Shown piece by piece: positions 28,261 to 41,610 of a stretch of 64,000 nt of DNA (its first letter is position 1; the number at the start of each line of letters is the position of its first letter). Under the pieces are notes generated by a model, which worked only from the letters and a program-made list of their open reading frames with translations, did not search any database and was not told the origin of the DNA. The DNA is from Martelella lutilitoris (lineage in GTDB: Bacteria; Pseudomonadota; Alphaproteobacteria; Rhizobiales; Rhizobiaceae): the NCBI RefSeq assembly GCF_016598595.1, contig NZ_CP066786.1, positions 1,387,501-1,451,500 of the forward strand, read 5' to 3'. Position numbers and translations under genes: made by a program.

Positions 28261-31212
28261 ATGAGCGATACAAGAGACACGATCGACTATTCCCAAACCC
28301 TCTACCTGCCGAAGACGGACTTCCCGATGCGCGCGGGCCTTCCCAAGAAGGAGCCCGAGCTTGTCGCCCGCTGGGAGGAGATCAATCTTTACAGGAAGAT
28401 GCGCGAGGACGCCGCCGGGCGCGAGAAATTCGTGCTGCATGACGGCCCGCCCTATGCCAACGGCAACATCCATATCGGCCATGCGCTGAACAAGATCCTG
28501 AAGGATGTGATCACCCGTTCCTTCCAGATGCGCGGTTACGATTCCAACTACGTGCCGGGCTGGGACTGCCACGGCCTGCCGATCGAATGGAAGATCGAGG
28601 AAGCCTATCGCGCCAAGGGCCAGAACAAGGACGAGGTGCCGATCAACGAATTCCGCCAGGAATGCCGCGACTTCGCCCAGCACTGGATCGACGTGCAGAC
28701 GGCGGAATTCAAGCGGCTCGGCATCGAGGGCGATTTTGAAAAGCCCTACACGACCATGGCGTTTCATGCCGAGGCGCGGATCGCCGGCGAACTCCTGAAG
28801 ATCGCCAAATCCGGCCAGCTCTATCGCGGCTCCAAGCCGGTGATGTGGTCGGTGGTCGAGCGCACGGCGCTGGCCGAGGCGGAAGTCGAATATCACGAGG
28901 TCCAGTCGGACACGATCTGGGTGAAGTTTCCGGTGGTCGAGGCGAGTGTCAACGAAGCTCGCCGCCTCAACGACCCAGATAAGGCTTCCGAACGTTTGGC
29001 TCAGCTCAAGTCAGCTTTTGTCCTTATCTGGACTACCACTCCTTGGACGATACCCGGCAACCGTGCCATCAGTTATTCGCCAAACGTAGCGTATGGGCTT
29101 TACGAGGTCACGGCTGCAGAAAACGAGTATGGGCCGCAACAGGGAGAGCGCGTTGTTTTGGCAAATAGCCTTTATGAGGAGTGCGCAGCCAAAGCTAAAG
29201 TCAAGTTGGAGATGCTTACCCATCTCGAATCCGATGAAGTCGCGAGTATCACATGTGCTCATCCGCTCGCAGCTCTAGGCTACAATTTCGAAGTACCGTT
29301 GCTAGCTGGAAACCATGTCACCGACGATGCCGGTACGGGCTTTGTCCACACCGCCCCCGGCCATGGCCGCGAGGACTTTGACGCGTGGATGGATCGTGCC
29401 CGCGACCTCGAAGCGCGCGGCGTCTCGGCCAAGATCCCGTTCACGGTGGGAGACGATGGCTTCTACACCGACGAGGCTCCGGGCTTCGGTCCGTCGGCTG
29501 AAGGCGGGGCTGCCCGCGTCATGGACGACAACGGCAAGAAGGGCGATGCGAACGACCGCGTCATCAAGGCGCTGATCGCCGCCGATCGTCTGTTTGCCCG
29601 CGGCCGGATCAAGCACGACTATCCGCATTCCTGGCGCTCGAAAAAGCCGGTCATCTTCCGCAACACGCCGCAATGGTTCGTCTATATGGACAAGGACCTC
29701 GGCGATCAGACGACGCTGCGCTCCCGCGCGCTTTCGGCCATCGACGATACGCGCTTCGTGCCGGCCGCCGGCAAGAACCGTCTCAACGGTATGATCACGA
29801 CCAAGCCCGACTGGGTGCTCTCGCGCCAGCGCGCCTGGGGCGTGCCGGTATGCCTGTTCGCGAACAAGGCCGGTGAGGTGCTGGTCGACGAGGCCGTCAA
29901 CCGCCGCATCCTCGAGGCCTTCGAAAATGAAGGGGCGGACGCCTGGTTTGCCGAGGGCGCGCGCGAGCGTTTCCTTGGAAGCCGGGCGAATGAGGAATGG
30001 GAAATGGTCACCGACATTCTCGATGTCTGGTTCGACTCGGGCTCGACCCATTCCTTCGTCCTTGAAGACCGTCCGGACCTGAAATGGCCGGCCGATGTTT
30101 ATCTCGAAGGCTCCGACCAGCATCGCGGCTGGTTCCAGTCCTCGCTTCTGGTCGGTTGCGCCACGCGCGGCCGCGCGCCCTACAACGCCGTCGTGACCCA
30201 TGGCTTCACCATGGACGAGCAAGGCCGCAAACAGTCGAAATCGCTGGGCAATCAGGTGTTCCCGCAGGATGTGATGGCGAAATCCGGCGCCGATATCCTC
30301 CGGCTTTGGGTGATGACCACGGATTACTGGGAAGACCAGCGCCTCGGCGAAACGATCATCAAGACCAATGTCGACACCTATCGCAAGCTTCGCAATACGC
30401 TGCGCTGGATGCTCGGCACGCTTGCCCATGACGAGGGCGAGGAGATCGCGATCCCCGAGATGCCGGAGCTGGAGCGGTTGATGCTGCACCGGTTGGCCGA
30501 ACTCGACCAGCTCGTGCGCAAGGGCTATGACGACTTCGAATTCAAGAAGATCGCCCGCGCGCTGACGGATTTCGCCAATATCGAGCTTTCGGCCTTCTAC
30601 TTCGACGTCCGCAAGGATGCGCTCTACTGCGATGCGCCGTCCTCGCTGCGCCGCCGCTCGGCCCTCGTCGTCATCCGCAGGCTGTTCGACTGCCTGGTGA
30701 CCTGGCTTGCGCCGATGCTGCCGTTCACCATGGAAGAGGCCTGGCTGTCGCGCAATCCGGAGGCCGTTTCTGTTCATCTGGAACAGTTCCCGACCGTGCC
30801 CGCCGACTGGAAGGACGAGGCGCTTGCGGCCAAGTGGCTGAAAGTCCGCGAGGTCCGCAAGGTCGTCACCGGCGCGCTGGAAGTCGAACGTCGGGACAAG
30901 CGGATCGGTTCATCGCTGGAAGCGGCTCCGGTCGTCTACGTCAACGACAAGACGCTTCTGGCCGCGCTGGATGACCGCGATTTCGAGGAGATCTGCATCA
31001 CCTCGGCGATCACGGTGAAGGAAGGCGAGGGACCGGTAGAGGCTTTCCGCCTGCCCGACGTCGCCAATGTCGCCGTCGTGCCGGCGCTTGCCGAGGGCCG
31101 CAAATGCGCGCGCTCCTGGCGGATCACCGATGATGTCGGCTCGGATCCCGATTATCCGGATGTCTCCGCGCGCGATGCGGCGGCATTGCGGGAACTGGCC
31201 GGCAAGGCCTGA
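28261..31212 (+). CDS. ileS: Isoleucyl-tRNA synthetase
   Basis: Charges tRNA-Ile and edits mischarged valine. The 983-aa class I synthetase has [15 protein letters not shown] (HIGH motif, about 63-77), a CP1 editing domain (about 200-400, with LIWTTTPWT and [16 protein letters not shown]), the KMSKS-equivalent [11 protein letters not shown] (Met replaced by Gln) near residue 660, and an anticodon-binding C-terminal part. The C-terminus has only one Cys of the usual zinc cluster (EGRKCARSW), as in other alphaproteobacterial enzymes. The segment 28940-29330 has lower GC and a different codon style from the rest of the gene (see separate entry), but the frame is intact. Confidence 0.97.
28940..29330 (+). 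other. Compositionally atypical segment inside ileS (editing domain)
   Basis: About 390 nt within ileS use codons rare in the flanks (TTG, CTA, TTA-rich wobble choices; GCT, ACT, CTT, AGT, GTA), while the protein stays a normal IleRS CP1 editing domain. A hand count of 28981-29280 gives about 52% GC, against about 60-67% in the 60-base lines sampled either side (28441, 29341). The change is abrupt on both sides, near ASVNEARRL and just before [11 protein letters not shown]. This fits gene conversion or homologous replacement by DNA from a relative with other codon preferences. Limits are approximate. Confidence 0.65.
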
Positions 31213-40092: not shown

Positions 40093-41610
40093 ATGACGGA
40101 TGACAGGGCGATGTTTGCGATGGGTTTGCCGGGCGGTGTCCGCGACGCGGAGCCGGTGGAGCCCGTTTCTCCTCCGCAAACCGCGGCAAAGGCGGATGCG
40201 CCTGTCGTGGCGCCGGCCAGCCGCAAGCCTGCCGATCTCGACGCCGTCGTCCTGGAACTGAAGGCGGCAGCCGGTGTTGCCGCCGCAACCAAGGCCGATG
40301 AGCCTGCGTCGGCCGAAGATGTGCCTGAACTGGCAGCCGAACAGGAAGATTTCGGCAGCATCCCCCTGCCGCGCGTCAATGGCGGCAACGAAAAGGCCTC
40401 GACAGGCAGACGCCTGCCTGTGGCTGCGCTGGTTTCCGTTCTCTTTCATGGCGCGGTCTTTGCCATGGCCATGCATGTGACTGAAATCATTCCCGAAGCG
40501 CCGCAGGAAGAGGGCGGAGCCGTCGTCAGCGTCGTGATGCTGGGCAATGGCGATGTCGATGCGGCTGCCAGTGGCGCGGAAGAGGCTCAGCCAACCGAGG
40601 TCGAGGCCCAGCCGGTTCCGGTGGAACAGGCGGCTACCGCCGAGGTCGAGAGCCTGAGCCCCGAAGTCTCCGAACCGCCGCCGGTCGAAACGCTCGCTGA
40701 GACCACGCCGGCAGCCGAAACGGTAACTGCAGCGCCGGTTGAGGCGGCCGAGGCGGTTCCCACGGAAGCGACCGAAGCAGCACCTGCGGCAGCGCTTTCT
40801 AGCCCCGAACCCGAGGTGCTGGCTGTCGCGCCAAGCGAAGCGACGGCCCCGGACACTGTGGCCCCTGCAGCGCCGCTCGTCTCCGAGGTCGCGCCACCGC
40901 CCGAAACCGAAGTGGCCGCTCCGCCCGAATTGGCTTATGCCGCGCGCCCCGAGACCGAGGAGGTCGAAGCGCCGCCGCCAGTCGAGAGACTTGCAGCGCA
41001 GATGCCGCAGGCGGAGACGATTACGGCGCAGGAAGATGACCCTGAACTTGCCTATGATATCGCGCCGCCGGTTCCTCAGCCCAACCCCTGGGAATCAGAG
41101 CCGCTTCCTGAAGACCAGGTGGCAACCCGTCAGGCCCAGGCAGAGCGCCAGCGTGAACAGGCCGCCGAGCAGAGAAGGGTTGCGCAGCGTCAGAGCGCCG
41201 GTTCCGGCGGCCAGTCGGCGCGCGATGCGCGCCGTGGGTCTGTCAGCGGCACATCCGAGCGGGGAGCCACCCAGGCAGCCGAATCGCGCAGCGGTTCGTC
41301 AGGCGATGGCGCGGCGGCAATGGCAAATTATGCGGGCAGGGTACAGGCACGGCTTGCCCGGTCGGTTGCGGCGGAACGCTATTATCGTGATCTCGGTCCA
41401 CTCACGACCACGGTGACCATCCGGCTGACGCTCAACCGTTCAGGCAATATCGCCGCCCTGTCGCTGGCGCGTTCCTCGGGAAACAGCCAGGTGGATGCGG
41501 TTGTCCTGCAGCGCGCGCGGGCAGCAGGCTCCTTCGGGCCGTTTCCGGAAAGCTACGCGGGCGCGCAGAAGAGCTTCACCCTGCCGGTCAATCTCACGCT
41601 GCGCCGATAG
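40093..41610 (+). CDS. tonB: TonB-family energy transducer
   Basis: Couples the proton gradient of the inner membrane (through ExbBD) to outer-membrane receptors. The 505 aa comprise an unusually long cytoplasmic N-terminus (about 1-107), one membrane segment (about 108-128) with the S-x3-H pair Ser115/His119 (SVLFHG) that TonB needs for ExbB/D coupling, a long Pro/Glu/Ala periplasmic spacer (about 130-415), and a C-terminal TonB domain (about 415-505, YAGRVQARLARSVAAERYY ... IRLTLNRSGNIAALSLARSSG). exbB and exbD are not adjacent. The neighbouring hmu operon suggests it serves heme uptake. Confidence 0.92.
   Translation: MTDDRAMFAMGLPGGVRDAEPVEPVSPPQTAAKADAPVVAPASRKPADLDAVVLELKAAAGVAAATKADEPASAEDVPELAAEQEDFGSIPLPRVNGGNEKASTGRRLPVAALVSVLFHGAVFAMAMHVTEIIPEAPQEEGGAVVSVVMLGNGDVDAAASGAEEAQPTEVEAQPVPVEQAATAEVESLSPEVSEPPPVETLAETTPAAETVTAAPVEAAEAVPTEATEAAPAAALSSPEPEVLAVAPSEATAPDTVAPAAPLVSEVAPPPETEVAAPPELAYAARPETEEVEAPPPVERLAAQMPQAETITAQEDDPELAYDIAPPVPQPNPWESEPLPEDQVATRQAQAERQREQAAEQRRVAQRQSAGSGGQSARDARRGSVSGTSERGATQAAESRSGSSGDGAAAMANYAGRVQARLARSVAAERYYRDLGPLTTTVTIRLTLNRSGNIAALSLARSSGNSQVDAVVLQRARAAGSFGPFPESYAGAQKSFTLPVNLTLRR

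Follow-up and report, generated by a model that had tools for sequence, protein, structure and literature searches.

We analyzed a window of 64,000 nucleotides (nt) from Martelella lutilitoris (contig NZ_CP066786.1, positions 1,387,501 to 1,451,500 of the forward strand) and focused on its gene for isoleucyl-tRNA synthetase, ileS, in which part of the editing domain appears to have been replaced by DNA of another ancestry. The gene (28261..31212; positions are those of the window, and all features described for ileS lie on the + strand) is a complete open reading frame of 983 amino acids with matches to the Pfam families PF00133 and PF08264. Its product has the make-up of a type-1 bacterial IleRS: it is a full-length class I synthetase with an anticodon domain and carries WTTTPWT plus the 15-residue second editing motif. 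The nearest solved structures are likewise type-1 IleRS (e.g. 8c9e and the complex with tRNA and mupirocin, 1qu2). The KMSKS loop (residues 657–661) reads KQSKS in this protein, and the consensus of a 57-sequence alignment is KMSKS.

Residues 226–352 of the protein, which make up most of the CP1 editing domain, are encoded by a stretch of foreign composition (28936..29318), referred to here as the cassette. The GC content at third codon positions (GC3) is 0.52 in the cassette versus 0.82 in the remainder of ileS (z = −8.8 against same-length windows of the gene), and the lowest value among the other windows of this length is 0.74. Total GC content is 0.51–0.55 in three 300-base windows within 28900–29399, compared with 0.59–0.67 in ileS windows clear of the segment. 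The left breakpoint is sharp. Relative to the two close congeners G010 and G002 (Martelella sp. AD-3), the sequence changes abruptly after codon 225 (between 28935 and 28936), and from 28936 onward both congeners are unrelated to the window at silent sites. On the right side, the perfect match to Martelella radicis (G011) runs to 29318. Where the sequences next differ, M. radicis carries the bases of G010 and G002, indicating that the cassette of M. radicis ends there. The window ileS shows some silent changes of its own just past this position, so that its right border, certain only to tens of bases, may lie some tens of bases further.

The left joint (28876..28935), which ends in WVKFPV, comprises 60 nt that are the same in M. 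radicis and G010 and have one change in G002. The cassette itself begins with a hypervariable linker (residues 226–251, 28936..29013) whose length differs among alleles, followed by a 14-residue editing motif (residues 256–269, 29026..29067) that is nearly invariant in the protein. A second hypervariable patch (residues 302–344, 29164..29292) is modeled as helix (302–312), strand (314–322), and helix (324–328). The right joint together with the second editing motif (21 residues, 29319..29379) is nearly invariant in amino acids among alleles and variable at silent sites. The original prediction, made on the letters of the window, had placed a patch of 52% GC (by hand count) and odd codons at 28940–29330, inside a complete IleRS with its editing motifs. 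These limits are off by no more than about a dozen bases, the hand count agrees well with the computed GC content, the sliding GC and GC3 profiles show the same patch, and the reading frame, Pfam matches, structure matches, and motifs all agree with an intact synthetase.

Silent sites provide evidence for replacement. We compared 13 Martelella genomes, the window's own included, and counted differences at four-fold degenerate sites in codons with the first two bases in common. The flanks differ from the two close congeners at 63 of 420 (G010) and 83 of 409 (G002) sites, a divergence of 0.15–0.20, whereas the cassette is saturated (26 of 37 and 22 of 29). Toward M. radicis the relation is reversed, with no difference at 62 sites of the cassette and 59 at 422 sites of the flanks. 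Indeed, the window and M. radicis are identical over 500 nt (28819..29318); the second longest perfect run is 158 nt, among 35,051 aligned bases that are 90.0% identical. A mismatch-free run of 500 nt at this place has a chance of ∼2e-7 if the mismatch rate is that of the 5′ part of the gene (17/558) and of ∼4e-13 if it is that of the whole of ileS outside the run (136/2449). A cassette that matches M. radicis perfectly next to flanks that diverge from it indicates that both genomes recently shared the piece, directly or via a common source. The 5′ part of ileS (28261–28818) is itself 97.0% identical to M. radicis, well above the aligned average, which suggests that an older, longer exchange surrounds the recent one. 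The pair G001–G006 provides an independent second case, with 28 of 43 four-fold sites differing in the cassette and 58 of 413 in the flanks.

Separate trees of segment and flanks also conflict. In the approximately unbiased (AU) test, the flanks reject the cassette tree (p = 1.8e-59) and a control segment does not reject the flank tree (0.126); the conflict is strong as seen from the flanks and weak as seen from the cassette. Silent-site saturation, the 500-nt run, and this conflict bear out the earlier proposal that part of ileS was homologously replaced by DNA of another lineage. Read from these comparisons, the ancestry of the cassette is different from that of the surrounding ileS, a mosaic of segment versus flank, and we regard the exchange as nearly certain.

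Such a patch is rare within the genome. As a baseline, 464 kb of the genome were compared with Martelella sp. AD-3, using open reading frames from a simple script, not a gene finder. We filtered for genes in which the lowest window keeps a distance of 30 codons or more from either end and the remainder reaches an identity of 0.85 or higher. Of the 142 genes that pass, ileS ranks first, with an identity drop of 0.32 in its most divergent 100-codon window (the next gene drops by 0.19). Without this filter, ileS is seventh of 259 genes; of the six genes above it, five are lowest at codon 0–20 of the open reading frame, and in the sixth the remainder is just 0.71 identical. Of 181 genes with 300 codons or more, one loses more than 0.2 in GC3 in its most divergent window, and the value listed for ileS is −0.26; a drop this rare is more than chance.

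The exchange is not confined to the window. In six of the 13 Martelella genomes, ileS shows a GC3 dip below −0.20 at the cassette, and none of the genomes does so in windows clear of it. The six carry five different cassette sequences and the other seven genomes lack the dip, so that the codon shift is not one that all near relatives have in common. The mean pairwise nucleotide identity among the 13 genomes falls to 0.61–0.70 in 40-codon ileS windows starting at codons 221–321, compared with 0.78–0.91 elsewhere in the gene. In the same genomes, the sister genes valS (0.78–0.91) and leuS (0.74–0.92) nowhere fall as low. A single leuS has a GC3 dip, at codon 641, where identity is kept. We therefore rejected the idea that such diversity is a general property of CP1 domains, because the valS and leuS genes of these 13 genomes do not show it.

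Among proteins, the cassette is decoupled from its surroundings. We compared 330 IleRS proteins (54,285 pairs), a set that mixes results of cassette- and flank-similarity searches and includes some duplicates from the same organism (e.g. P0082 and L004), so that the pair counts are descriptive. In 339 pairs with a flank identity of 0.97–0.99, cassette identity averages 0.79 and falls to 0.46, whereas four control segments of equal length average 0.97–0.99 with minima of 0.86–0.94. In 115 pairs with a flank identity of at least 0.99, the cassette minimum is 0.50 and the control minima are 0.97–0.99. The rank correlation with flank identity (pairs of at least 0.9) is 0.30 for the cassette versus 0.58–0.83 for the controls.

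The decoupling is pronounced in the group of Agrobacterium vitis. Fifteen A. vitis-type proteins, hand-picked for the highest flank scores (14 carry the name A. vitis and one, P0136, the label MULTISPECIES), have a median flank identity of 0.979 but a median cassette identity of 0.667 and fall into 10 cassette clusters at a 90% cut. A wider group of 30 proteins, which includes metagenome proteins, holds 21 cassette clusters; both sets consist of database cluster representatives chosen by flank score, not at random. Two A. rosae proteins (P0177 and P0178) are 0.994 identical in the flanks and 0.61 in the cassette. The cassettes of the A. vitis proteins P0123 and P0141 resemble those of A. rosae (0.80 and 0.81) more than those of their nearest neighbors by flank (0.66 and 0.64), which points to exchange between species. 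Outside the vitis group, 127 of 483 pairs with a flank identity of at least 0.96 have a cassette identity of 0.75 or less. Judged from sequence alone, the A. vitis group has many deep alleles among close relatives, as is characteristic of a balanced, diversifying locus. We are highly confident that residues 226–352 of ileS are a recurrent, multi-allelic exchange site, which goes beyond the single event first noticed in the window. One A. vitis protein (P0128), an ordinary IleRS in other respects, has ∼50 extra residues in its CP1 cassette, inserted between HPL and YSF.

We used the GC3 dip (below −0.20), which detects just those cassettes that come from lower-GC sources, to follow the mark through the class; L115, which has no alignable segment, was left out of these counts. 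Dips at the cassette occur in three of 40 genomes of the same order (taken from 130, roughly every third row), none of which dips in windows clear of the cassette, in two of 21 further relatives from the family and order, and in one of 60 genomes of the class at large. The latter were chosen from 134 partly by score and genome size, and one of them (G111) belongs to the order itself. In a set selected by cassette similarity, dips were found in 10 of 80 sequences at the cassette and also in two of 78 at an N-terminal window. The strongest dip is that of Methylobacterium haplocladii (0.42 versus 0.86); a few dips were seen outside the order, for instance in a member of the Rhodobacteraceae (L097) and in Hyphomonas (L087), each of −0.24.

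Deep alleles among close relatives were looked for in Rhizobiaceae and in Escherichia coli, with a negative result in the latter. The editing region of E. coli is 90–95% identical to that of strain K-12 in 1115 of 5375 records and 80–90% identical in three, whereas two other parts of ileS are at least 95% identical in every record. Three E. coli strains differ from K-12 by just 2 to 4 residues over the span 181–335. A general bacterial property was thus rejected: the region of E. coli is more variable in DNA but nearly constant in protein (three strains), and no comparable alleles were seen. As sampled, the mark appears to be concentrated in Hyphomicrobiales, with deep alleles among close relatives seen in Rhizobiaceae. 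In the soil strain E. coli SC434 (L258), nucleotide identity to K-12 falls locally to 83–84% in two ileS windows, those beginning at codons 331 and 361. Ten residues differ over the span 336–388, one of them turning the editing motif HTAPGHG into HTAGGHG.

Variation within the cassette largely spares the editing motifs. The 257 Rhizobiaceae-like sequences contain 173 cassettes that differ by more than 10%, and across these the columns 256–269 (14 residues) and 350–366 (17 residues in the window) are invariant or nearly so; the motifs WTTTPWT and GTGFVHT are invariant. Variation is concentrated in the length-variable linker after WVKFPV (226–251) and in residues 302–344. Similarly, in 21 A. vitis-type proteins most of the sequence has almost no entropy, and the highest values fall within residues 221–340. 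Within residues 254–349, the 18 columns with an entropy above 2 are polar on average (hydropathy −1.5), compared with +0.6 for the 57 columns below 1. The AlphaFold2 model of the full-length protein has a mean predicted local distance difference test (pLDDT) score of 74.5, with 83–90 over residues 221–350 except for 57 at residues 231–240. By our own reading of alignment and model, the variable residues of 302–344 are in many cases polar and occur in alternation with conserved hydrophobic residues, as would be the case on one exposed face. Given the conserved motifs and the presumed exposure, the alleles probably preserve the editing chemistry and differ in the outer face of CP1.

We propose the following explanation for this pattern. 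The resident piece was replaced by the corresponding part of ileS from a different, probably alphaproteobacterial lineage; the incoming DNA would have entered by homologous recombination at or near WVKFPV and an 18-residue conserved motif. The replacement itself is seen in the silent sites, and the route is our inference. Replacements of this kind have recurred with other pieces, both among Rhizobiaceae and, judging from the GC3 mark, elsewhere in Hyphomicrobiales, so that close relatives carry many alleles. Each incoming piece keeps the editing motifs and alters mainly polar, probably exposed residues, and it may be retained for the change it brings to the outer face of CP1. Diversifying selection, or selection for rare alleles, could then maintain the diversity if an agent such as a toxin, a peptide antibiotic, or a phage protein recognizes the CP1 surface. 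One variable domain, deep alleles, sharing across species, a conserved active site, and unaffected sister enzymes form the pattern that recognition by an antagonist would produce. We favor the explanation as a whole, recurrent cassette exchange with diversity maintained by an antagonist, with modest confidence. That the driver is an antagonist binding to the CP1 domain is a proposition on which we are nearly evenly divided, leaning slightly toward doubt. More tentatively still, an undescribed antagonist directed at Hyphomicrobiales might target CP1 of IleRS, in which case ileS would act like a self/non-self locus, with rare cassettes favored and circulating between species by homologous exchange.

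Several observations weigh against this explanation. The cassette, being saturated, yields no more than a weak rejection of the flank tree (AU p = 0.042, Shimodaira–Hasegawa p = 0.055), the cassette of P0123 also occurs, at 0.95, in the close protein P0136, and entropy and hydropathy show no significant rank correlation within residues 254–349 (rho = −0.08, p = 0.42). Small GC3 dips (below −0.2) exist in valS too, in three of the 13 Martelella genomes at the codon-241 window and in one at the codon-261 window, although identity is kept there, and CP1 is somewhat faster-evolving at deep divergence in the 330-protein set. We found no donor in 394 Rhizobiaceae genomes, the window's own aside (M. 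radicis was not in this draw), no mobile carrier (plasmid, phage, or viral) in the collections searched, and no silent copies of the cassette, each of the 13 Martelella genomes having one match. Nor did we identify an antagonist for the putative recognition of CP1.

The best matches to the cassette in the 394 Rhizobiaceae genomes are 69% identical over 305 nt (same genus) or 79–81% over 115–135 nt, and among the top 120 proteins listed there is no close match besides M. radicis. Plasmids were rejected as donors: 37 plasmid records match with a best identity of 64.9%, and the 20 listed are replicons of 0.26–5.4 Mb. The same applies to phages and viruses, with 12 phage records all below 60% and 24 and 11 loci in IMG/VR at 31–56% and 34–51% in the best segment. 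Second copies of ileS were dismissed as a common source, as only one of 130 genomes of the order (G607) lists two near-full-length matches, of equal score.

The main rival to antagonist-maintained exchange is a neutral recombination hotspot, in which conserved flanking motifs let divergent DNA pair and exchange is frequent without selection. In keeping with this, the left breakpoint adjoins a conserved island, and WTTTPWT and GTGFVHT do not vary. However, ileS has further conserved islands, as do valS and leuS, and neither the four ileS controls nor the CP1 regions of valS and leuS have such diversity. Moreover, neutral exchange should homogenize close relatives, whereas 15 A. vitis-type proteins hold 10 deep alleles, and we consider the hotspot unlikely, if still the most serious competitor. 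An adaptive tuning of editing specificity toward valine, norvaline, or toxic isoleucine analogues would fit a cassette that spans the editing domain and has many differing alleles, but the motifs hardly vary and the most variable parts are the linker and residues 302–344, which makes tuning rather improbable. On the same grounds, the altered proofreading that the original prediction had considered possible is not favored, as the editing motifs are nearly invariant across the 173 alleles.

A selfish DNA agent, such as a homing endonuclease or an intein since lost, could cut ileS and drive co-conversion, and local exchange at a conserved site is a possible footprint of such elements. Yet the left edge is sharp and does not decay, and the alignments contain no intein-like insertion (the largest, in P0128, is ∼50 residues), although no search aimed at endonucleases or inteins was made. 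The cassette also does not have the character of a mobile-element or intein insertion, as it swaps like for like and is single-copy in the 13 genomes. We judge an agent of this kind to be quite improbable. Fast evolution in place, or relaxed constraint on CP1 with codon usage drifting toward AT, can draw on the faster pace of CP1 at deep divergence, but it is at odds with the 500-nt perfect identity to M. radicis, the saturated silent sites, and the near-complete conservation of motifs over 173 alleles, and we reject it as having very little chance of being correct. The probability of an assembly or annotation artefact is close to nil, as the identical segment is present in an independent genome (M. 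radicis) and other species have segments of their own.

Mosaic genes for penicillin-binding proteins, driven by β-lactams, are known from Neisseria and pneumococci. Similar to these, ileS is an essential gene of which a part has been replaced by recombination with related species, with many mosaic alleles and conserved motifs. Whereas the blocks are variable and the driver is a β-lactam in the penicillin-binding proteins, the ileS block recurs at one domain of a synthetase and its driver is only inferred.

Other parallels come from synthetases under attack. In agrobacteria, agrocin 84 targets LeuRS, and strain K84 is immune via the variant LeuRS AgnB2, according to PMC4307249. Here a rhizobial antagonist attacks a synthetase that bears a CP1 domain, and a variant of the enzyme confers immunity, which makes this a precedent for the driver proposed for ileS. 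In contrast to a cassette in ileS, AgnB2 is a whole second leuS on a plasmid with LeuRS as the target, and leuS is not hypervariable in Martelella. The same article also reports that synthetic benzoxaboroles bind to CP1 of LeuRS and that mutations conferring resistance to the benzoxaborole AN2690 fall into the LeuRS CP1 domain (PMC4307249). On this account, a CP1 editing domain can serve as a drug target and evolve under selection, although the AN2690 case differs in concerning a synthetic drug, point mutations, and LeuRS.

Mupirocin-type resistance of ileS arises at codon 588 in staphylococci or through a whole type-2 IleRS, according to PMC13095176 and to the titles of structures such as 8c8u and 8c9e. 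It resembles our case in that a natural product selects on ileS, and it differs in that the change is not a CP1 cassette. The original prediction also raised resistance to natural IleRS inhibitors, which the cassette may confer. Mupirocin itself is unlikely to be the inhibitor in question: its docking site is the synthetic active site (PMC4307249), whose HIGH and KMSKS motifs fall outside the cassette. Trifolitoxin is specific to alphaproteobacteria, and PMC8816728 describes how it acts as unknown; we name it as a candidate agent only, and a link to IleRS is speculation.

Exchange of an ileS cassette was not found described in the open-licence literature searched, which covers few subscription papers and no preprints. 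Synthetases are treated as slow-changing housekeeping enzymes, but here one domain differs between close relatives as it does between genera, while two sister enzymes do not. If the proposed antagonist is real, the alleles point to a novel attack on translation and offer a ready panel of natural variants for finding it. In these bacteria, ileS is unsafe as a phylogenetic marker unless residues 226–352 are removed.

Some additional observations concern other synthetase loci and the rest of the window. Two of the 394 Rhizobiaceae genomes (G434 and G397) have two ileS genes each. In G434, a second complete leuS lies beside the second complete ileS (L328:4963-10643), separate from the ileS on L327, among genes for an NhaA-thioredoxin protein, a peroxiredoxin, a glyoxalase, and a thiamine pyrophosphate (TPP) enzyme, and this locus may be an island of stress or inhibitor tolerance. 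In another genome of the order (G051), the best match to the window IleRS is merely 29% identical (residues 25–865) yet scores 851.6 bits with the ileS family model, and this IleRS may be of another, type-2-like form. Within the window, the other place of low identity common to three congeners is a proline/alanine-rich gene (40093–41610), TonB-like by eye, whose lowest windows of 0.63–0.78 versus these congeners are ordinary for such proteins.

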